A stretch of DNA of 64,000 bases from Owenia fusiformis (taxonomy: Eukaryota; Annelida; Polychaeta; Sabellida; Oweniidae): the NCBI GenBank assembly GCA_903813345.2, contig CAIIXF020000005.1:35839375-35903374 (forward strand), in the 5' to 3' direction. Within the stretch, counting starts at the first letter, position 1. Every line of letters starts with the position of its first letter. Positions 3,016 through 48,545 of this stretch are shown in pieces. A model generated the notes under the pieces. It was not told the DNA's origin. It ran no database searches and saw only the letters and a list, made by a program, of their open reading frames with translations. The position numbers and the translations under genes were made by a program.

Positions 3016-3086
3016 CTGTTTGCAGAATTCATGCCATCTTTCATCACACCCGTCAACTCTCTCTTTCCAGTCCTTGTGAAATCACC
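3016..3086 (-). CDS. INPP5F: INPP5F-like exon e (DFTRTGKRELTGVMKDG)
   Basis: The 71-nt exon follows the acceptor tttctag and ends AACAG|gtcagt. It encodes GDFTRTGKRELTGVM then KDGMNSANR, directly continuing TAALK of the preceding exon as in SAC2. The preceding intron is about 6.1 kb and holds several transposable elements. The next expected exon (a YYLNRF-like start) was not found between 1 and 3015. Confidence 0.93.
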
Positions 3087-9000: not shown

Positions 9001-12000
9001 CTGCCTATTATACAGGAAAAAATATTCTCTACCATTCTCTCTTAATGCAACTTATTTAGCAGTATATTAAACATTTTATTCTATATTATTTTTACTTTTT
9101 TACCAAGTGTGCCTCGGTAACTATATGGCCCTAAACTATGTAGTGGGGACATAAAAAGCATACCTTAAGAGCTGCCGTGCCCGCGTATTGTCGACTTATC
9201 GCATCACCATTGTTTGCCCAGACCTGCTGGTAGATGACTCGACAAGACAGAGGGAGGCTTTCATCTGGTGGGAGGAGCCCTAATTTACGGCACTGAAAAT
9301 AAAAATTATCAAAAAATTACCAGTCGCCCTTGTAGGCAATGTGACATGTCACTTATACAACTGATGGGAAATGTAAGATCAAATAAAATAATTTTGAACT
9401 GATAAAACAATAATAAGCTCAATTGCTCAAACAAAGATTGGTTCCGTTGATTCCGTTGCTTTGTGTATATAAATGGGTGTTTGAACATCAAAATGGATGG
9501 CAGCTTCAGTAAATACTTCTTATTGGATGTAGACCTGGTCTACGAATCCTTTTAAAAAGTTGAGCATTTCCAAATGGTAATTGTACCATTTTAATTTATC
9601 AGAGTCTCTCTTTATCTCAAGCTTGTTCTTCCAAGGGATAGTCGAGACTATGGATCCTACAATGTAATTTCTCAGATGCGAGTAGGTAGTTACCAGTTTC
9701 GCCACCAGGTGGTTGATTCGGGGGAAATAACATGGCAGGGTATTACAAAATCCCTTAAACTTGAATATGCATCAGTTTTAGTGGTTCACTTTTCAAATTA
9801 CCCTTGTGTATGTGATAGTTATACAAATTAAAATATGTCCAGGAAAAGAAAATATTATCTGCTCAACACAAGAAAAGATATTTCACTTTTTGTAGTTTTA
9901 CAACATTGGGTCTCTGGGGAATCTCCCCAACCTATTTTCAAAGAAAATTAAATTTTCAAAGTTGATAAACTCCTTTCAAAACCACATTTTTAGATGTAAT
10001 TTTATATGTAGATTCCAAATATGACACCAGTTTGACTGAATTGTGACGTAAATGACGTAAATCAAGATTATTTCTACTCGCATCTGGGATATTGGACCCA
10101 TGTAATTATACCTGTATTTCCATAACAGTTCTTGCTAGGGCAGTCTGCACTACATTAGTTCTGTCCAAGCAATCAATACAGTTAACTCTGAAGACACTCC
10201 TTTGTTCACATATCATACCCTTCCTGTCAACCCTAAATATAGAAACATCCAATGAAATATACATCTTAATGAATATAGAAACATTCAATGAAATATACAT
10301 CTTAATGAATATAGAAACATCCAATGAAATATACATCTTAATGAATATAGAAACATCCAAAGAATATACATCTTAATGAATATAGAAACATCCAAAGAAA
10401 TATACATCTTAATGAATATAGAAACATCCAAAGAAATATACATCTTAATGAATATAGAAACATCCAATGAAATATACATCTTAATGAATTGAAGAATCCC
10501 AGTTCCTCCACATGCATTGATATGGCATGCCACATACAGTACAACAGGAAAGTGTAATACGAATTTCAAAAATAAGGAGGGATATATTATTTATTAAATC
10601 ATTTATTCTTCTTAATGTGATTTTTATATTTTAAAATCACAATAAATTATTGTACACACCAAAAATACCTCATATGTTATTGTACATATGCTTGTACATA
10701 CCAACAATATCCAATATATTATTGTATATACCAACAATATATCATGTTATTGTACATACCAACAATGTATCATAAGTTATTGTACATACCAACAATATCT
10801 CTTATGTTACTATAAATACCAACAGTATCTCATATTATCCTACACTTAGTGTACTAAATGTATAATAACATTAAAAAATAAATTTGATATTTATGGGCAA
10901 AATGAATATCCGGAGGATATCGTGACGATATACTCCGGAAAACCCAATATGCGGAGGATATTGTGACGATATACTCCGCTTGTTGATTTCCCGCCAAATT
11001 GACTCTATTTGGCATGAAATTCATTTTGCAATGATATTATACATTTAGTACACTCCTTGTAAGTGTAGGATAATAAGAACATCCTATGATTTTTTCAGAA
11101 TATCATTTTAATCTACTCGGTGATATTGATATATGCACTCGTTCGCTTCGCTCTCTCGTGCAGATATCAATACCACCTCGTAGATAAAAATGATATTCCT
11201 CAAAATCATAGGATATCCTATAATTATTGTACGTGCAAACAATATCTCATATATTATTGTACATACCAACAATATCTCATGTTATTGTACATACAAACAA
11301 TATCTCATATATTATTGTACATACCAACAATATCTCATGTTATTGTACATACAAACAATATCTCATATATTATTGTACATACCAACAATATTTCTTTTGT
11401 TACTATAAATACCAACAATATCTCGTGTTATTGTACATACCAACAATATCTCATATATTATTGTACATACCAACAATATCTCATATCTTTAATGACATCA
11501 GGAATGCTTTCAGTCAGGACATCCACATTCTCAAACTTCATACCTCGACTGTAAATAAGAAAACATTAAACTGCAAAAGTCATTAAGCGTTAATTTTGAG
11601 AGGGAAACAAAAGTTGCTGAAAATGCTATTCCCAGTATATAAGTACCGGATTTTGAAATTTTGAAATAAACTGGAATCCATTTCCCCCAAAAATATTCCA
11701 GTCAAATATAAAATCTAAACAATTGGCTCCCTTTACATCTAAATGGTGATGAATAAAATAACGTTAGGCAGATTAATTTTTTCACTTGTCAGGTTGTATC
11801 TTGAGCAAAAGCAATTTTATCCTGCAGGCAAAATAAGTATCTTAACAGAATAGTTGAAAACTTTCATCTGGGCAGTAAAACCACTTACATAAGTCTTTTG
11901 AGACTTTGTGATATCAATTTATACATTCAAAATAGCAACATCAATCTTAATCGATCAACAGACAATTTCAGTGAACCAGAAAGACACACAGCACTTACCA

Positions 12001-12191
12001 GTACTCATGGAAGTCAAATGTAATATAAGTAAGATCTGGGGAGTTGTTTTCCAATATATGATCGAGGTATGCATCTGCGATTACTTTCTCCTTTCCTGAT
12101 TGGTCAACAAGATTTACGATGACACCTTTTTTGTAGGTTTTTAGTTCATCCTTAAAGTGTTGCTTGAAGGCTTCCTGACATTCTCCCATAC
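3016..12191 (-). CDS. INPP5F: INPP5F/SAC2-type phosphoinositide phosphatase, partial (5 internal exons of the SAC domain)
   Basis: Five exons (12191-11999, 11548-11471, 10223-10112, 9292-9164, 3086-3016; 583 nt) join in phase with GT-AG introns into one stretch of SAC phosphatase domain. Diagnostic phrases seen are VNLVDQSGKEK, FDFHEY then CRGMKFENV, the catalytic CX5R loop in VNCIDCLDRTNVVQ, WANNGDAISRQYAGTAALK, and DFTRTGKRELTGVMKDG. Family knowledge: SAC2/INPP5F removes the 4-phosphate from phosphoinositides on endocytic membranes. FDFHEYCRGMKFENV and GVMKDGMNSANR fit SAC2 better than SAC1. The last exon ends in phase 2, so the gene runs off the left edge; its C-terminal SAC end and hSac2/PH-like region are not here. 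No N-terminal exons were recognised to the right, although the first exon seen begins in mid-domain. Introns are packed with mobile and tandem repeats. The coding sequence itself looks intact. Confidence 0.9.
3087..3515. other. non-coding intron sequence
   Basis: First part of the 6.1-kb intron in genomic order. Includes a GGGCGGGCAAAA segment at 3181 and poly-T runs; no element ends were recognised. Confidence 0.35.
3516..4345. repeat. degenerate ~23-bp tandem array with an internally inverted block
   Basis: Units of the type CCCATCTTTTTCTTGCTAATG run from about 3520, become regular after 3780 and continue to about 4335. Between about 3943 and 4095 the units are on the opposite strand (GATGGGGACATTAGCAAG). 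The array therefore switches orientation twice, at about 3942 (CATCTTAAAGATG, a perfect head-to-head junction) and about 4100. A C-run (11 C) lies at 3625. Confidence 0.75.
4437..5193. mobile_element. 757-bp palindromic element flanked by TTAA (piggyBac-type target site)
   Basis: Arms of roughly 330-370 bp are inverted copies with only scattered differences. They start GGTGCTATGGAA and end TTCCATAGCACC, and are flanked on both sides by TTAA (4433-4436, 5194-5197). The loop around 4790-4860 is AT-rich and unrelated. It has no protein-coding capacity. TTAA duplication is characteristic of piggyBac transposases, so this is best read as a non-autonomous foldback member. Arm identity looks above 90%, indicating recent formation or gene conversion. 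Confidence 0.8.
5198..5577. other. intron sequence with one pogo-like MITE end
   Basis: GTACAGTGAAACCTGTC at about 5384-5400 is the left end of the CAGTRAAACCTGT family, preceded by TA. No matching right end was found before 5577, so the copy appears truncated. The rest is unassigned. Confidence 0.4.
7187..7641. other. unique block within the satellite
   Basis: This sequence replaces the expected satellite between the second and third copies. A 94-codon open frame crosses it (7103-7387) but shows no recognisable protein features and starts within repeat sequence; I regard it as chance. Confidence 0.4.
7642..7815 (-). mobile_element. diverged copy of the CAGGCCCGTAGCCAGG MITE inside the satellite
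   Basis: Shares with the complement of 17581-17784 the order: TGGATCAATTTTC-type start, GGGGTCACACTTGA, TTTTGGCCCGAAATCACTT, GTGCTCAGA, GATTTTGAAAAAATTTTGGC, C-run, CCTGGCCATGGACCT. Terminal repeats are degraded. It also holds a 9-G and a 9-C run. Confidence 0.55.
9164..9292 (-). CDS. INPP5F: INPP5F-like exon d (WANNGD...QYAGTAALK)
   Basis: The 129-nt exon (43 codons, phase 0 at both ends) encodes CRKLGLLPPDESLPL, then YQQVWANNGDAISRQYAG and TAALK. The acceptor is attttcag and the donor gtatgc. The WANNGD/QYAGTAALK block is a hallmark of SAC2-type SAC domains just C-terminal of the catalytic loop. Confidence 0.95.
9293..9660. other. INPP5F-like intron between exons c and d, unannotated part
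   Basis: No repeat family or coding block was recognised between the exon d acceptor and the MITE at 9668. Confidence 0.4.
9668..10096. mobile_element. ~425-bp MITE with CAGATGCGAGTAG ends, copy 1
   Basis: Ends are inverted: CAGATGCGAGTAG at 9674 and CTACTCGCATCTG at 10076-10088. The same element, clearly alignable throughout (ATATGTCCAGGAAA, GGGGAATCTCCCC, AAAGTTGATAAAC), recurs at 45806-46240. It contains a hairpin GGGGAATCTCCCC. No coding capacity; a target duplication was not clear. Confidence 0.7.
10112..10223 (-). CDS. INPP5F: INPP5F-like exon c, catalytic CX5R loop
   Basis: The 112-nt exon begins after ttgacag and ends at CAG|gtataa. It encodes KGMICEQRSVFRVN followed by CIDCLDRTNVVQTALARTVM. 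The cysteine-x5-arginine phosphatase signature is complete, so catalytic competence is preserved. A 36-bp minisatellite lies only about 14 bp upstream of its acceptor. Confidence 0.95.
10237..10489 (+). repeat. 36-bp minisatellite, ~7 copies
   Basis: The unit begins ATATAGAAACATCCAATG and ends CATCTTAATGA; copies differ by 1-2 bases. It lies immediately intronic to the catalytic-loop exon (10112-10223). All three minus-strand frames are open because the unit lacks stops, which explains several spurious ORFs here. Confidence 0.9.
10490..10645. other. short intronic spacer
   Basis: Nothing recognised between the 36-bp minisatellite and the donor-type array. Confidence 0.3.
10646..10836 (-). 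repeat. diverged segment of the exon-b donor array (~28-30 bp units, ~7 copies)
   Basis: Units read, on the minus strand, GATATTGTTGGTATGTAC with variants. They are the same repeat as at 11222-11470 but more mutated. A distinctive variant containing TACTATAAATACCAACA is present in both segments, which supports one original array split by the 10837-11214 insertions. Confidence 0.75.
10837..11071. mobile_element. ~235-bp MITE with ~33-bp inverted ends
   Basis: The left end TATCCTACACTTAGTGTAC and the right end (complement of GTACACTCCTTGTAAGTGTAGG) match apart from a 7-base indel. The interior has two tandem near-perfect palindromes, at 10910-10938 (CCGGAG..CTCCGG) and 10951-10979 (GCGGAG..CTCCGC). 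It is inserted in the donor-type minisatellite. Confidence 0.65.
11081..11214. mobile_element. 134-bp hairpin element
   Basis: The left arm ATCCTATGATTTT..GATATTGATAT pairs with the right arm ATATCAATA..AAAATCATAGGAT across a loop containing CTCGTTCGCTTCGCTC, which is itself a small inverted repeat. A similar right end (CTCAAAAATCATAGGATATCC) occurs at about 27223 before carbonic anhydrase exon 3. Confidence 0.6.
11222..11470 (-). repeat. amplified splice-donor minisatellite (28/30-bp units, ~9 copies)
   Basis: On the minus strand each unit carries ATGAGATATTGTTG followed by GTATGTACAATA. This is the 3' end of exon b plus its 5' splice site. 30-bp and 28-bp versions alternate. Reading past the authentic donor gives Trp-Tyr-Val-Gln-stop, so use of any later copy would truncate the protein. 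Confidence 0.9.
11471..11548 (-). CDS. INPP5F: INPP5F-like exon b, with a 3' end made of minisatellite sequence
   Basis: The 78-nt exon encodes RGMKFENVDVLTESIPDVIKDMRYC. Its acceptor is ttacag and its donor gtatgt. The last roughly 18 coding bases plus the donor match the unit of the tandem array that fills the following intron sequence, so the true donor at 11470 is the first of many near-identical donors. Exon phase continues correctly into the next exon (TG|G, Trp). Confidence 0.9.
11549..11998. other. intron between INPP5F-like exons a and b
   Basis: A 450-bp AT-rich intron with clear GT-AG ends; no repeat family recognised. Confidence 0.6.
11999..12191 (-). CDS. INPP5F: INPP5F-like exon a (SAC domain core before the catalytic loop)
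   Basis: The acceptor reads ctccag and the donor gtaagt. The exon is 193 nt and starts two bases before an in-frame ATG codon. It encodes GECQEAFKQHF, VIVNLVDQSGKEK and TYITFDFHEY, all phrases of the SAC2 domain. It ends on TG, and the next exon supplies T to make the Cys of HEYCRGM. The ATG near its start is almost certainly internal, since family members have several hundred residues before this point. Confidence 0.92.
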
Positions 12192-24900: not shown

Positions 24901-27900
24901 AAAAAACAATGTTTTATGACAAAATATTCATATCATATTATCTATTATACCTACTATAAATAGTACATGTGGTTCTCATCAAATGGGTTGATAGAATGAA
25001 CATTCAATGGGTGAAAAGAATGAACACTCAATGGGTGAAAAGAATGAACACTCAAAGGGTTAAAAGAATGAACACTCTATGGGTTAATAGAATGAACACT
25101 CAGTGGGTGAAAATAATGAACACTCAATTGGTGAAAAGAATGAACACTCAATGGGTGAAAAGAATGAACACTCAATGGGTTAAAAGAATGAACACTTAAT
25201 GGGTTTATCAGATGATAACTCAATGGGTTTATCGAATGAACACTCAATACTAAATTAACAAGCTACTTGTGTACTTCAAACACAGAGAGTTCTTAATCGT
25301 ATTATGTTAACTGCATAATAATGATAATACAAGAATAATGTTAAATATAGAATAAACAACACTTGATCTTTGATAGTTTTGCACAATCAAATTAAACTTG
25401 CTCAATTAGGGATAACCTCCTTAAAGTTTTAACCCCCACTGACTTGCCTCCCTGTAATGAATAATATTTCAATTGTCGCATCCCCAGATCTTCAGCCATT
25501 TTGTTAATGTGAATATTTTTTTCAGGTGAACATGGTGATGATGCACACAAACATTGGGGATACCATGGAGATGTGGGTATGTATCATAATTGAGAATACT
25601 ACTCATTTGTAACACCCATGATTATACTGAAATTATTAAATGCCCATGGGCATTACAAATGAAAGAAGAATTTTTGTGCCTTTTTGTGCTACTCTAAAAA
25701 CGTTTGGTTTACACCCAGAGTAACGATCGAGTACCATGAAAATATGGAAATGTCATCGGAGACATTTACATCTTGATTCTCATGGTTTCAATTGCTCCTA
25801 CTTCAACCTTGGAAATCGAAGAAGGGTCTCCATATATTGTTTAAATATATGTCAATCATTCAGGATTTATGGAGACATTTTAATCAGACTGTCAAAAATG
25901 TATACATACAACTGTTATTTATGAAACAATAAAACATATATGAAGGGAAACTGTATATAAAACACTCAAGCTACACTGAGATTATTCAGAAAATATATTT
26001 TTCTTTTGCCTAAAACAAATTGTTACATGCTAAATCCTTACAATGATACAATGCAATTCATGCATGGTTTCACAATTTAAGCATGGGTTTTTATGCATTA
26101 ATCCGTTACTGCTTCATAAACAATAGATCTACATTTTTATTTTATGTCTCCAGTTCATAGGTTTCTGGCATGAAAATGAATTTATTGGGTTTGTAATATG
26201 CACCTTACTTGCCGAGTTCAATGAACCCTCTGCTTTTAGAAATTATAAATATGAATGTAAAACTGAGCTCCAAGAATAAACAAGGTGCGTCTACATGTCT
26301 AAGGGTGTATCGCATATAAAGTTTCCACCTCAATATTTTCACCAAATCATCAAACATTCGCTGGTATTGCTTGAACTATCTATCTTTACATCTTCCATCA
26401 ATAAATAAGTAAGAAGATTTCTACTTGATAACATTTTTTTCTTAAAGTCTACTTTGACTACTTGACTTTTGGGTATTCTACTACCCCAATTTTCTTTATC
26501 AACCATGTTTAAGAATATAATAATTGCATTTTTCAAATTTCAACCTACAACAAACTTTTCTTGCAGAGATAGATAAAAGAGCTTTTTTTTGTTCTTAATC
26601 TGTGATTATACTTGTTTTTCAAAATCCAAAAACTTTAAAGTACAGTACCTAGTTCAAGAAAATGTAGATTTAACATGTTTGTCCCTATAATTCATCAATT
26701 TTGGCAACAGCAAATACACTAATCAATCTCAGTAGGTATCTTACAGATTTCTGCATTTAGAATCATTACCTACTGTTTACCTTTTGGAGATCTTTGCAAT
26801 TTTGAGATACTTAAGAATGATAACTAACATGTTGACATGTGGAGAAACTGAGCAACTACTTGCAATTTTGTCACTTTCTATGTCTGTAATTGTCGCTTAA
26901 GGGTAAGGGTTTCTTATTTTTACTCAATTCTCAGGTTATTCTGACCTTAAGCCTACATGCAGTTTCAACATATGGTAAACATTATTACATGACTGAAGAC
27001 AATGATGTGTATTTGAGACATTAATTCAATCAAAATACCGCAGTCTACTTATAATACAAAAATTGCTTTAACCCTGCTATCAGCGAAACAATTAATAATA
27101 TCATTTTATCTGATGGATACTAAATATGTATGGGGATAACAACAAAAGATAATTTTGGTATGTGCCACTAAAATCGTATCTGACTCATATGACGTCTTAA
27201 AAATAGTATCTGTCCGATCCCTCAAAAATCATAGGATATCCTCTATATATCTGGTTATGTTAAACATATAATTTTCTAGGCCCAAAACACTGGCCTGATT
27301 TGGAAAAGGGAGCAGCATGTGGTAGTGAATACAAGTACCAGTCCCCAATCAACGTTGAGTCAGACAATACAATCTACAGTCCCCATTTGAGGAAGTTCTT
27401 CACATGGTATGACCCACCTAAACCAACAGACAGAATGAGCCTAATCAACAATGGCCATACAGGTAATGTCATAAATACAGTAAAACCTGCATATTATGGA
27501 CATTTTTTACCAAGAAAAACATTCAGTGTTGGTAGGTGTTTGCTATAGAGAGGGTAATTTATATAGAAGTTTGTAGAGTATATGCCGAGGCATGGTGTCC
27601 ACTAAAGACAGGTGTTCACTAGAGAGAGGTGTTCATCAAGACTTACTGTATTAGCTTCTTCGACAATGGTTATATGGGTCATATGCAAAAAGAATAGAAG
27701 CCTTAATACTGGCCTAATTTCAGCTTTGTTATTGGACACCCATATACCTTTTTTCTCAAACAATTTAGTTTGACACAACACAAACCTTTTGAACTCCTTC
27801 AACTTTTCAAATGATCATTTAATAGTCGCTGTATATAATAACAGTATAATAACATGCAATTGAGCGGCAAAACATGATATGGCTTGACACAAGATACAAC

Positions 27901-30895
27901 GGTTGGATTGAGTTCAAAATGTCATGTATGTCTGCAATGGGATGTTCAGGGGCATATTAATGGTGGAAGATATCATTTATAAACTGAACATTAATTGCAA
28001 TATTTTATTCAATTTTAAAAAAAATCAATCAAATTTCACTTTTATAATTCTGTTATGTGTTCATTGTGAACACTCACTTGAATGCAAATCGATTTATTTT
28101 AAGTGACTAACTGAACACTAATCTAGCTAGTAATATAGTATCATCCTATACAAAATTTGAATCAGAAGCATATTATGCAAATCATATAGTAAATACTGTA
28201 TATTAACATGCATCCGTTTTATGCAGAGAAATGTTTATTTTTGCATTGCTTTGATATTTTCTCACATTTAAATGTTAACTTAATTCTTATATTCTTTGCT
28301 TTTTAGTGCAATTAAACATTGATGGTGATTATTTTGTGACCGGTGGGGGCTTGATAGGTGTCTATGAAGCCCTACAGCTTCATTTCCATTGGGGGTCCGT
28401 AGATGCCCAGGGTTCGGAGCATACACTAAATGGCAAAGCCTTCCCCTTAGAGGTATTTATCTAATCCTATAATTTCACACCAAGAGGTACAACTGAACTT
28501 GGCCAAATTTTAAACAAAATTGGCGAGCTAATTCTTAATAATATATGTTTTTTATTAACGTTTTGACACTAAACTGCACGTCTTCCATCTGATGATTGAC
28601 ATGTCTTACCTCAATGACAGCTGGTTGACCATGTAAAAAGGAGACAGCAAAAATTCTCACATTAGGGGGTTGGAAAGTATACTTTTAAACACACTTGACC
28701 TTGACCTGTAAAAACTAATAGTTCAAATCATAGATTATAATTTCTTACTGATTTTTACCAATTTTAAAATTTACGTGACTTTATTCATCACAAAACATTA
28801 AAACTTCAATAATATATTTCATTTTGTTACAGATGCACATCGTGACATATAATACAAAGAAATACCAGAATGCGGGAGAGGCACTTGCCTCAAATGACCA
28901 CAGTGCTTTGGCTGTATTGGGGGTGTGGTTTGAGGTAGGCCTTTAAGACAAACAACACTCACTGATTACTTTCTGAAAGAAGTCAACTCCATTAATACTA
29001 CTACTTATTGATCACCCCTCGTACTTCTACTTATTGATCACCATGTACGAGGGTTGTTCAATAAAAATTCATATAAATGCTCTCATTTTCATGTTCATCT
29101 TCAAATTAAGTTAACATTTTTGAAGGTTATATTTACTTATTATAATGATCTTTTTCTGCAGATGAGTGACACAGATAATGAATATGTTCAAGCAGTTTTG
29201 GATCACCTTGCCGATGTTGAAAATCCAAGTGCTGGTAAAGATTTTCATTTATTTTTGAAATATTATTTTTCCTGGATAACGATTACAAACTTGGAATAGA
29301 AACATAGATCATTGATTCTCAGAATCTCAGCGCCATTGATTTTCATTATTCGAGTAACCTACTCAAACTCTGGGTGATGGGTTGTCATGGTAACCTAGGA
29401 GTAGGGGGTGCAGGGCAGGTGCAGAACAGTTATCTTAAATATGCCCAAAAAGTCTAACAATTCTCTGATTTAATGAAAAACAGCATGGAATATGTGAGAT
29501 ATGCGAAGCTTTCAGGATCTAGCTAAGATGTATGTTAGATAAAACCAGGCTTGAACCTGATTATGTAATCTAAAACGGATATGAACATACCTATTTTTAA
29601 GCCTTCTAATTCATTGAACCCAACCATTCCTTCCATTCTGCACAGTTAGCAGTGTCTTAAACCAGAACCATTCCATTCCCTTCTTAACCATAATATATAT
29701 GATCACCAATGTCTTAACCAAAAGCAACAGAATCTTTTTTTAGAATAAGTTTTGTTAATGATCTGATCTTACTTTTCTCCCTATCTTCATAAGGAAGCAC
29801 TGCAAAGTATCAATACAGTTTAAAAAAGCGTTACATCTACATCTACAGTTCAATCTCACTCCTACTGACTTGCTATTGAACCCCTGGGATGAACATACTT
29901 AAGTTTGTTAATCTTAGCTATGTAGATGGGGGATGTTGATGCAGCATTTGCGAATGATATTTCAACAAACCAGCTTTTTTGGATTGGCCAAGATATTTAA
30001 TATACGTGTATATATGCCTAGAGAAACTATAAGCATGAATATTTATATTTACGGTATACTTATTTATTTCTAGATGCTAGCAGCGAAGTGGCAGCTTTTG
30101 CTCTGAAGCATGTTCTACCGAAGGACATAGAATCTTTCTATCGTTACTATGGTTCCCTAACAACACCTACATGCAACGAAGTTGTAGAATGGACTCTCTT
30201 CAAAGAAACAGTACCAATTTCTGAAGGCCAGGTAAGTTTTTTCTTATTTGTTAGTTGTTTTTTTTTGTATTTGGTTGTTTGTTTCCATGTAAGATTTCAT
30301 ATTTTCTGAGTATACTTCTGTAAATATTGTGATTCATATTGTTTGCACTACATGTATGTAAGTGTTATACCTCTTGTCACTACATAAAATATAGATCACT
30401 GTCTGATAATATACAGTATATTTGCCAGTCAACAATAAGATCATGAATTGTTTCATAATTTTTATATTTTATTGGCCTATATACTGTATACTATATAATT
30501 TCATGCCATTATATTAGAAAACAGAATAATTTGTATTGAAAGTGCTGCCAAGAAATAGTTTTCGCATCAAATCAAAATATTTTTCTAAAAAAAAACATAT
30601 ACCAAAAATTGCTAATTCTAAAAATAATATCTCTTTTAATTTTCAGTTGGTTCAGTTGCGTTCTGTATTCAGCAATGAGATGAATGAAGACGGTAATCCT
30701 ATAGCAATGGGTGACAATTATCGACCAACGCAGCCGTTAAATGGACGCAATGTTCTCCGCAGTTTCTTAACAGAAAAAGAAGCGAAAGAGCATGGAAGAA
30801 AGCCAGTTTTGTATAATGTTGATGGGGCAGCCTCAAACACAGCACTCTCTATATCTTTATTATTAAGTGTTCTTTTAATGAAATTTCTGTTTTGA
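21881..30895 (+). CDS. alpha-carbonic anhydrase, secreted/GPI-anchored type (8 coding exons, 347 aa)
   Basis: Eight exons join without a stop: 21881-21962, 25526-25576, 27280-27462, 28307-28452, 28833-28934, 29162-29234, 30074-30231, 30647-30895 (1044 nt with TGA). The ATG has A at -3 and G at +4. Residues 1-21 form a signal peptide (cleavage likely after VLA). The alpha-CA fold follows, with CA II-equivalent residues His64 (H104), zinc ligands His94/96 (H131, H133 in LHFHWG) and His119 (H156), Glu106 (E143) and Thr199/200 in SLTTPTC (T242-T243). C58 and C246 match the disulfide of extracellular CAs. The protein ends with a small-residue stretch (GAAS, 325-328) and a hydrophobic tail without cytoplasmic residues, as in GPI-anchored CA IV/XV. 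Expected role: reversible CO2 hydration at the outer cell surface (acid-base balance, possibly biomineralisation; inferred). No usable N-glycosylation sequon was seen. CA IV/XV membership is inferred from architecture. Confidence 0.95.
24372..24545. mobile_element. 174-bp pogo/Tigger-like MITE
   Basis: Ends CAGTAAAACCTGT / ACAGGTTTCACTG are inverted with one mismatch and flanked by TA on both sides. The interior includes GAGAGGTGTTC phrases. It belongs to the same family as 27478-27648. Confidence 0.8.
24982..25247 (+). repeat. 24-bp minisatellite in carbonic anhydrase intron 1, ~11 copies
   Basis: The unit contains GAATGAACACTCAATGGG followed by (T/G)(G/T)AAAA. A divisible-by-three unit without stops gives an open frame repeating KRMNTQWV. 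It is intronic, with no splice support, so not a protein. Confidence 0.9.
25526..25576 (+). CDS. carbonic anhydrase exon 2 (HWGY motif)
   Basis: The 51-nt exon lies after tttttcag and ends at GTGG|gtatgt. It encodes GEHGDDAHKHWGYHGDVG. The HWxY element marks the N-terminus of the mature alpha-CA fold. Phase 1 at both ends. Confidence 0.88.
25577..27279 (+). other. carbonic anhydrase intron 2
   Basis: A 1.7-kb intron. The end segment at 27205-27241 (CTCAAAAATCATAGGATATCC) resembles one arm of the hairpin element at 11081. The rest is not recognised. Confidence 0.6.
27280..27462 (+). CDS. carbonic anhydrase exon 3 (first cysteine, QSPIN, proton-shuttle His)
   Basis: The acceptor is ttttctag and the donor gtaatg. 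It encodes PKHWPDLEKG, ACGSEYKYQSPINVE and SLINNGHT. It carries the first disulfide cysteine and the histidine equivalent to His64. A MITE starts 15 bp after its donor. Confidence 0.95.
27478..27648. mobile_element. 171-bp pogo/Tigger-like MITE next to the exon 3 donor
   Basis: CAGTAAAACCTGC at the left and AGACTTACTG at the right, with TA on both sides. GGTGTTCACTAGAGAGAGG phrases lie inside. It begins 15 bp after the exon 3/intron 3 boundary of the carbonic anhydrase gene, so it must leave the donor functional. Confidence 0.75.
27649..28306 (+). other. rest of carbonic anhydrase intron 3
   Basis: No further element ends or coding blocks. Confidence 0.5.
28307..28452 (+). CDS. carbonic anhydrase exon 4 (zinc ligands 1 and 2)
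   Basis: The acceptor is ctttttag and the donor gtattt; length 146 nt. It encodes GLIGVYEALQLHFHWG and SVDAQGSEHTLNGKAF: two zinc histidines and the Glu that orients the catalytic threonine. Confidence 0.96.
28453..28832 (+). other. carbonic anhydrase intron 4
   Basis: A 380-bp intron, nothing recognised. Confidence 0.6.
28833..28934 (+). CDS. carbonic anhydrase exon 5 (zinc ligand 3)
   Basis: A 102-nt phase-0 exon after ttgttacag, ending GAG|gtaggc. It encodes MHIVTYNTKKYQ and then LAVLGVWFE. The His of MHIV is the third zinc ligand; LAVLGVWFE is the conserved central strand. Confidence 0.96.
29162..29234 (+). CDS. carbonic anhydrase exon 6
   Basis: A 73-nt exon after tttctgcag, ending AGTGCTG|gtaaag. 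It encodes MSDTDNEYVQAVLDHL and ADVENPSA, the helix that links the catalytic strand to the C-terminal half. Phases agree with both neighbours. Confidence 0.92.
29235..30073 (+). other. carbonic anhydrase intron 6
   Basis: An 839-bp intron. A short TTATTGATCACC duplication lies just upstream, in intron 5 (about 29006-29042). No element recognised. Confidence 0.55.
30074..30231 (+). CDS. carbonic anhydrase exon 7 (SLTTPTC active-site signature)
   Basis: The acceptor is atttctag and the donor gtaagt; 158 nt. It encodes FALKHVLPKDIESFYRYYG and SLTTPTCNEVVEWTLFKE. It supplies the two active-site threonines, the second disulfide cysteine and the conserved Trp. Confidence 0.96.
30232..30646 (+). 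other. carbonic anhydrase intron 7
   Basis: A 415-bp intron with T-rich runs after the donor; nothing else. Confidence 0.6.
30647..30895 (+). CDS. carbonic anhydrase exon 8 (C-terminus with GPI-type tail)
   Basis: The exon follows aattttcag and ends in TGA at 30893-30895. It encodes the last strands (LRSVFSNEM, NYRPTQPLNGRNVL), an acidic/basic linker (TEKEAKEHGRK), then GAASNTALS and a leucine-rich hydrophobic end. This is the arrangement of a GPI attachment signal; a short plain membrane anchor is the alternative. Confidence 0.93.
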   Translation: MVQLRSVFSNEMNEDGNPIAMGDNYRPTQPLNGRNVLRSFLTEKEAKEHGRKPVLYNVDGAASNTALSISLLLSVLLMKFLF

Positions 30896-36569: not shown

Positions 36570-37170
36570 CTTGCCACACGACCCTCTAGCAACAACATAT
36601 GATTTCAAGAAATCTCAATTGTACATTTCACTGCATTTTATGAAAGATGAAAACTAAATGAATATTACCTATTTACAAGCAGAAATATTTAGTATAGAAA
36701 TTTACTTTTATGAATTTATGAAAATGTTCAATATAATCTTGATCAAGGAATTATTTCTAAATTAGAGAGTGCAGATGAAGCTATTTTTCATGCAAAAGTG
36801 CAGTACTCAATCCATGAGTGTCACCCTGGAAAATGTTAACAGGAAATACATGCATGTAAAATATGAAATTGATGAATAGGAGGTGAGCGAACTTGTAGTA
36901 TATTGTACTATAGAGGATAAAAGTACCTTGCTAATGACTAGGACTACTACATGTTATCATAACTCACTTTTTTCTAATTCCACTTAAGTCATCAGAGATC
37001 AAAAGTAATCTATGGATTAGCAGAACTCGTTAAACACTTCCTTGCTCCACAAATCGTGTCAATAAACTCAGGATTTACACATATGTATACTAGTAGTAGT
37101 AACCCTTGACAAAAATATAAGATTCAGTTCACTATAAAGAAAAATGGCATGACCACATCTGCTAATACAG
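36570..37170. other. non-coding
   Basis: AT-rich. ACTAGTAGTAGTAAC near 37090 is a short triplet run. Confidence 0.3.
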
Positions 37171-38368
37171 AGTTATTCACAAATTCATGAGTTATTCATA
37201 AAATCACACATTATAAATTCATGAGTTACTCACAAATTTACAAATTATTCACAAATCCATGAGTTATTCACAAATTCATGAGTTATTCACAAATTCATGA
37301 GTTATTCACAAATTCATGAGTAATTTACAAATCCATGAGTTATTCAAAAATTCATGAGTAATTCACAAATTCATGAGTAATTCACAAATCCATGAGTTAT
37401 TCACAAATTCATGAGTTATTCACAAATTCATGAGTTATTCACAAATTCATGAGTAATTCACAAATCCATGAGTTATTCACAAATTCATGAGTAATTCACA
37501 AATCCATGAGTTATTCAAAATTCATGAGTAATTCACAAATCCATGAGTTATTCACAAATAAATGAAGTATTCATAAATTCATGAGTTATTCACAAATTCA
37601 TGAGTAATTCACAAATCCATGAGTTATTCATAAATTCATGAGTTATTCACAAATTCATGAGTTATTCACAAATTCATGAGTAATTCACAAATCCATGAGC
37701 TATTCACAAATTCATGAGTTATTCACAAATTCATGAGTAATTCACAAATCTATGAGTTATTCACAAATCCATGAGTTATTCATAAATTCATGAGTTATTC
37801 ACAAATTCATGAGCTATTCACAAATTCATGAGTAATACACAAATCCATGAGTTATTCATAAATTCATGAGTTATTCACAAATTCATGAGCTATTCACAAA
37901 TTCATGAGTAATTCACAAACCCATGAGTTATTCACTAATTCATGAGTAATTCACAAAGCCATGAGTTATTCACAAATTCATGAGTAATTCACAAATTCAT
38001 GAACTATTCACAAATTCATGAGTTATTCACAAATTCATGAGTAATTCACAAATTCATGAGCTATTCACAAATTCATGAGTTATTCACAAATTCATGAGTA
38101 ATTCACAAATCCATGAGTTATTCACAAATTCATGAGTAATTCACAAATCCATGAGTTATTCACAAATTCATGAGTTATTCATAAATCCATGAGTTATTCA
38201 CAAATTCATGAGTTATTCATAAATTCATGAGCTATTCACAAATTCATGAGTTATTCATAAATTCACGAATTATTCACAAATTCATGAGTTATTCATATAT
38301 TCATGAATTATTCACAAATTCATGAGTTATTCATATATTCACGAATTATTCACAAATTCATGAGCTAT
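37171..38368 (+). repeat. 19-bp minisatellite, ~63 copies (1.2 kb)
   Basis: The unit is ATTCACAAATTCATGAGTT, with recurring variants: TTC/TCC at the middle, GTT/GTA/GCT at the end, CAC/CAT. Variants often alternate (TTCATGAGTAA then TCCATGAGTTA), indicating a 38-bp higher-order period. The flanks of the array are more degenerate. Stops in all frames; not coding. Confidence 0.95.
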
Positions 38369-47409: not shown

Positions 47410-48545
47410 GCTAAGGGACTTTTATTGCTCATTGGCAAAGATTGCTCTTTGATTTTGTTTGCTCACTGGCTATGACTGCTCACTGGCTATGATTGCTCAA
47501 TGACTATAATTGCTTATGTTTATTTACTGGCTATGTTTGCTCACTGGCTATTATTGCTTATGTTTGCTCACTGGCTATGATTGCACACTGGCTATGTTTG
47601 CACAATGGCTATAATTGTTTACTGGCTATGATTGCTTATGTTTGCTCACTGGCTATAATTGCTTATGTTTGCTCACTGGCTATGATTGCACAATGGCTAT
47701 TATTGCTTATGTTTGCTCACTGGCTATAATTACTTATGTTTGCTTACTGGCTATGTTTGCACAATGGCTATGATAGCACAATGGCTATAATTGTTTACTG
47801 GCTATAATTGCTCAATAGCTATAATTGCACACAGGCTATGATTGCTCACTGGCTATAATTGCTCAATGGCTTTGATTGCTCACTGGCTATAATTGCTTAA
47901 TGGCTTTGATTGCTTTTTGGCTATAATTGTTCACTGGCTATGATTGCTTATGTTTGCTCACTGGCTATGATTGCACACTGGGCATGATTGCTCAATGGTT
48001 ATGATTATTCACTGGCTATGATTGAACACTGGCTATGCTTGCTCAATGGCTATAATTGCTCACTGGTTATGATTGCTCAATGGCTATGATTGCTCAATGG
48101 CTATAATTGCTCACTACCTATGATTGCACACTGGCTATTATTGCTTATGTTTGCTCACTGGCTATTATTGCTTATGTTTGCTCACTGGCTATTATTGCTT
48201 ATGTTTGCTCACTGGCTATGATTGCACACTGGTTATGATTGCTCAATGGCTGTGATTGCTCATTAGTTATAATTGCTCACTGCCTATGATTGCACACTGG
48301 CTATTATTGCTTATGTTTGCTCACTGGCTATGATTGCACAATGGCTATGCTTGCTCAATGGCCATAATTGCTCACTGGTTATGATTGCTCAATGGCTGTG
48401 ATTGCTCAATGGCTATAATTGCTCACTGGTCATGATTGAACACTGGCTATGCTTGCTCAATGGCTATAATTGCTCACTGGTTATGATTGCTCAATGGCTG
48501 TGATTGCTCATTGGTTATAATTGCTTCCTCGCTATGATTGCTCAA
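47410..48545 (+). repeat. 17-bp minisatellite, ~65 copies (1.1 kb)
   Basis: Base unit TGCTCACTGGCTATGAT with CAC/CAA, GAT/AAT/GTT variants, plus an extended 26-bp form that inserts TGCTTATGT before TGCTCACTGG. Longer composite blocks repeat within 48020-48540, indicating segmental duplication inside the array. Confidence 0.95.

Follow-up and report, generated by a model that had tools for sequence, protein, structure and literature searches.

A tandem array of candidate splice donors at an exon end in a probable INPP5F-like gene of Owenia fusiformis

How is a splice donor chosen when the intron that follows repeats the same donor many times over? This question is raised by a 64-kb window (the whole stretch of DNA analyzed, 64,000 nucleotides of contig CAIIXF020000005.1) of the annelid Owenia fusiformis, whose minus strand carries part of what is probably, from its sequence, an INPP5F-like Sac phosphatase gene; this copy may or may not yield a complete enzyme. 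As judged by reading frame, the authentic donor of its exon b belongs to a tandem array and lies in the array's first unit. The explanation that we favor, with a probability of about two in three, is that the exon b junction expanded by slippage or unequal exchange and that the resulting array is tolerated through use of the first donor.

The donor array and its predicted coding consequences

Repeat unit 1 straddles the junction, with 16 coding bases at the end of exon b and the first 14 bases of the intron, and further units follow at spacings of 28 or 30 bp, except for a gap across an insert and one 42-bp step. The earlier note described the last ~18 coding bases plus the donor as repeated about nine times downstream, with a second, older segment beyond. 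The repeat is real, but exon and array agree exactly over 16 nt (ATATGAGATATTGTTG), a match that stops at the junction and is lost upstream; the nine contiguous units include the exonic one, giving eight proximal decoys plus six distal ones; and the second segment, which is somewhat more diverged (mean identity to the exon copy over 28 columns is 88.7% for distal units vs 93.3% for proximal units), is the distal part of that array, separated from the rest by an insertion. Core starts run from 11480 to 11246 in the nine units and from 10829 to 10669 in the six. TTGGTATGT units alternate with TTTGTATGT units in the more distant half of the proximal block, where Tandem Repeats Finder (TRF) reports a period of 58 bp.

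Chance similarity between the exon end and the array is rejected by two kinds of shuffling. First, with three mismatches at most, the window contains 14 matches to a 22-bp repeat core, the exon copy among them, where none is expected (100 shuffles); all 14 occurrences are on the minus strand, inside the intron between exons b and c (the b-c intron) or across its exon edge, and the rest of the window yielded no copy of the repeat unit. Second, when exon b was mononucleotide-shuffled 200,000 times with its last G kept, the longest junction-anchored match was 10 nt. A looser scan, allowing seven mismatches, gives 15 units with the exon copy, and the consensus of the 14 intronic units is identical to the exon copy at 16/16 exonic positions. 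An exact search of viral contigs with the core DNA gave no matches; protein-pattern searches gave one matching stretch in viral contigs, unconfirmed, and 19 in genome contigs, none confirmed.

The decoys had been called near-identical, and half of them repeat the donor motif exactly. The authentic 9-mer recurs unchanged in 7/14 intronic copies, with equal predicted U1 duplex energy (-6.7 kcal/mol, compared with -5.7 to -10.2 for the gene's other four donors), and motif strength therefore cannot select the first donor; the remaining seven have weaker predicted U1 pairing, and GT is kept in 13 of the 14. Donor columns show no sign of extra conservation among the 14 copies, averaging 1.0 changes per column, with 1.1 in the exonic part (1.3 if its first two columns are included) and 1.6 in the rest of the unit. 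The predicted coding outcome is uniform. As the earlier note proposed, a later copy adds Trp-Tyr-Val-Gln and then a stop before the catalytic exon, and this is true of every intronic copy (KDMRYCWYVQ, then stop, in 14/14); the stop codon is intron bases 11-13, and so precedes exon c in any decoy-spliced mRNA. Only the first of the 15 donors gives an open frame, with exons a-d joined there reading through 173 codons. Retention of the b-c intron leads to the same stop as the decoys, and skipping of exon b keeps the frame at a cost of 26 codons.

These features suggest how the array may have come about. A 30-bp junction stretch (16 coding bases, the donor, and eight more intron bases) would have been tandemly duplicated, and the array would then have grown by slippage or unequal exchange, until a transposon-like inverted-repeat insertion broke it. 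The exonic part of the repeat encodes D-M-R-Y-C-W, close to the DMKWCW of a provisional human INPP5F sequence used as a probe; this resemblance makes the exon the likelier source of the array, with a coding sequence that is plausibly the older of the two, and we infer that expansion proceeded outward from the exon and that the first donor is used exclusively. The insert is 386 bp and contains four inverted-repeat pairs, two with arms of 48 nt and two with arms of 18-19 nt. Judged by their fit to a strict 30-bp period, the eight best flank joins tried all delete 387 bp (best identity, 0.85), and because this excision restores the array register, the insertion is later than the array that it split; an origin as two independent arrays is rejected. 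Elsewhere in the window, a 29-bp stretch (27217-27245) shares 90% identity with an end of the insert and is perhaps the end of another copy. Coordinates are collected in Table 1.

Table 1. Features of the INPP5F-like locus (window coordinates)
Feature	Coordinates	Strand	Description and basis
Exon a	11999..12191	-	Sac domain, ends ...FDFHEY; open frame joined to exon b; Pfam Syja_N
Exon b	11471..11548	-	78 nt; ends ...DMRYCW, exon c completing the last codon; open frame
Exon c	10112..10232	-	Catalytic motif RVNCIDCLDRTN; frame and protein match
Exon d	9164..9292	-	Open frame, protein match, provisional human probe
Exon e	3016..3086	-	GDFTRTG...NSANR; tblastn with provisional human probe and sequence inspection
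Predicted authentic 5' splice site, GTATGT	11465..11470	-	Joining exon c here gives ...RYCWVDRKG, frame open
Proximal array	11223..11486	-	Nine contiguous 28/30-bp units including the exon-overlapping one; TRF and unit list
Distal part of the same array	10646..10836	-	Six recognizable units
Inverted-repeat insertion, like a miniature inverted-repeat transposable element, probably two elements	10837..11222		Arms; register restored on removal
36-bp array	10236..10489	-	7.1 copies, 97% matches; stops 3 nt short of exon c; TRF

Proposed choice of the first donor and competing explanations

With motif strength unable to discriminate, the spliceosome would have to commit to the first-transcribed, exon-adjacent donor and ignore the downstream copies, as in human F7 intron 7. 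Rare transcripts spliced at a decoy are expected to undergo nonsense-mediated decay, and the array is most likely tolerated rather than selected as a regulator. In F7, the intron carries 37-bp repeats and the first donor is used, which PMC6627357 explains by oriented scanning; strict preference for the first donor at exon b would match that account.

Predicted RNA structure bears on this choice in two ways. The authentic donor and the exon end can form a local hairpin (46 nt, -9.2 kcal/mol; z -2.0, 6/200 shuffles as good), and both a 76-nt stretch (z -2.0, 7/200) and the exon with the proximal array (z -2.2, 4/100) fold somewhat better than shuffles; a 149-nt stretch (z -0.65, 50/200) and a single unit (z -0.76, 44/200) do not stand out. 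In the fold of the exon with the proximal array, the authentic donor is 0.18 unpaired, the eight decoys 0.09-0.45, and the mean for the array 9-mers is 0.29. Partial transcripts give a time-dependent picture: the first donor is predicted to be 0.67 unpaired at lengths of 95 and 110 nt (copy 2 is about half made at 110), 0.10 once copy 2 has been completed, at 125 nt, and 0.13-0.18 at longer lengths, with 1/200 shuffles reaching 0.10 and none of 200 showing as large a drop. Such early exposure, if the model is right, suits first-come use. A further possibility, that structure masks the decoys and leaves the authentic donor accessible, is rejected: that donor is as paired as the decoys when folded with the proximal array, and in local folds it is more paired than 13/14 of them.

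Several points weigh against expansion with tolerance. Only one of the other 14 copies is less accessible than the authentic donor in local folds of 80 nt (authentic donor, 0.15 unpaired; decoys, 0.13-0.83), so structure alone does not favor it, and the partial-transcript result is built on model energies and on mononucleotide shuffles of 38 nt. Neutrality would allow the survival of GT in the decoys, but so would retention by selection. Finally, the proposed copying direction, from exon to intron, depends on the provisional human sequence, and yeast SAC1, which is unlike the end of exon b at this point, cannot confirm it.

An unlikely alternative sees in this locus a pseudogene or partial duplicate of a Sac2 gene, where arrays at splice sites would be free to grow. 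The protein from exons a-d matches yeast SAC1 (E 1e-27), three distinct PDB sequences match at E up to 1 (two SAC1 and one Fig4), Pfam Syja_N covers residues 4-65 of the spliced protein (5.1e-14), and exon c contains the C-x5-R catalytic motif of Sac domains, as RVNCIDCLDRTN. The provisional human INPP5F sequence matches exons a-d and exon e over residues 358-554 only, all remaining matches having E of 1 or more. N-terminal Sac exons were not found upstream in 12192-64000 with pieces of this probe (best E 0.29), as a partial duplicate would predict; the same outcome would arise if the intron were long, the 5' part had diverged, or the assembly were broken there. A second C-terminal probe piece has its best match (E 0.081) out of order at 55580-55521, and the downstream, C-terminal part may lie past the end of the window. 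Against decay of the copy, there are five exons with open frames, usable splice sites, and an intact catalytic motif.

We regard as a little less probable still the idea that the array is a splicing regulator tunable by copy number, in which decoys would recruit U1 or fold onto the authentic donor and repeat number would set the productive fraction of mRNA. In its favor, a stop follows from all 14 decoy donors and from all seven decoy acceptors at the other end of the intron (see below), and the first donor is predicted to be masked by transcribed copy 2. In addition, F7 repeat number reportedly correlates with mRNA level (PMC3492156). However, a retained AT-rich intron soon meets a stop anyway, which makes the stop weak evidence for regulation, and the donor columns are not visibly better kept than other columns of the unit. 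Tuning of enzyme amount by repeat number or copy choice, the possibility raised in the earlier note, is plausible by analogy.

A related idea, which we consider improbable, is that the intron, with an array at each end, works as a kinetic gate that exposes the first donor only for a few dozen transcribed bases, until copy 2 pairs with it; if so, productive splicing would depend on transcription speed and copy number. Equally improbable is insertion of a dispersed minisatellite or repeat-carrying mobile element that then supplied the end of exon b: tandem arrays are abundant in the window and an inverted-repeat element does lie inside the donor array, but the repeat unit is confined to this locus within the window, the exon end retains the INPP5F-like DMRYCW (by the provisional probe), and the insert interrupts the array in register and so came later.

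The acceptor end and comparison with known systems

The same intron ends in a second array, absent from the earlier note, which has a 36-bp unit and, going by that unit, is unrelated to the 28/30-bp donor array. It contains ATTAAG seven times, giving seven AAG acceptor-like decoys; with the true donor, all seven put a stop at the junction codon. The last decoy AAG is 32 nt upstream of the true AG, with no AG between. Four copies carry TTCATTG, which resembles the YTNAY branch-point motif, and three have TCTTTGG instead. An array edge falls within 15 nt of two of the ten splice sites, for which a Monte-Carlo test gives P = 0.007; this value is only a guide, the test having been devised post hoc with 12 arrays (TRF score 100 or more), the halves of the donor array counted separately, and the end of exon e entered as 3018 (later read as 3016).

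The arrangement at the donor end is already known in kind from F7, and arrays at both ends of one intron are unusual. The likeness, so far as the sequence tells, lies in a donor within the first array unit followed by donors of equal motif strength, seven of the 14 here. The differences are in unit length (37 bp in F7 vs 28/30 bp here), in number (four to seven units vs 15), in the mobile-element-like insert that splits the array here, in gene and organism, and, perhaps, in the second, unrelated array at the acceptor end. The number of F7 repeats varies from four to seven, and PMC3492156 reports a direct correlation between this number and the mRNA level, for which it cites O'Hara and Grant (1988), Marchetti (1992), and Pinotti (2000).

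The locus would be a further natural case of the F7 type, found in a gene unrelated to F7, and it has both a larger number of copies and arrays at the two ends of the intron. Because seven downstream donors share the core motif, it would provide a natural test of position- or time-based 5' splice site choice, and, if copy number varies among individuals, of whether junction minisatellites alter gene output. Its resemblance to the Sac phosphatases is limited to the part found in the window: exons a-d match SAC1, Syja_N, and the provisional human INPP5F sequence, without the N- and C-terminal parts. Tandem alternative 5' splice sites are another known system, and lie a few bases apart. Unlike these, the donors here recur at 28/30-bp intervals, within a minisatellite. 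Both have adjacent competing donors (PMC2423196). Donor arrays are not described for earthworm metallothionein intron-1 minisatellites or chicken MUC2 in the parts available of PMC12783039 and PMC3549977, and F7 intron 7 is not mentioned in the available portion of PMC3778950. The literature consulted, mostly without subscription papers, weakly supports the absence of donor arrays beyond F7.

Other features of the window

No Rfam family above the gathering threshold and no ARAGORN prediction was found in the window. A carbonic anhydrase gene lies in pieces at 27264-30895 on the plus strand (Pfam Carb_anhydrase, with two of the 10 submitted proteins above the cut-off and one just below); together with introns and long arrays, it points to an animal genome. 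Two further tandem arrays are at 37170-38368 (19-bp unit, 63 copies) and 47424-48544 (17-bp unit, about 70 copies). Between 3758 and 4336, three adjoining blocks of one 23-bp repeat alternate in orientation, with GCTAAT present four, zero, and seven times in the successive blocks and ATTAGC zero, six, and zero times.
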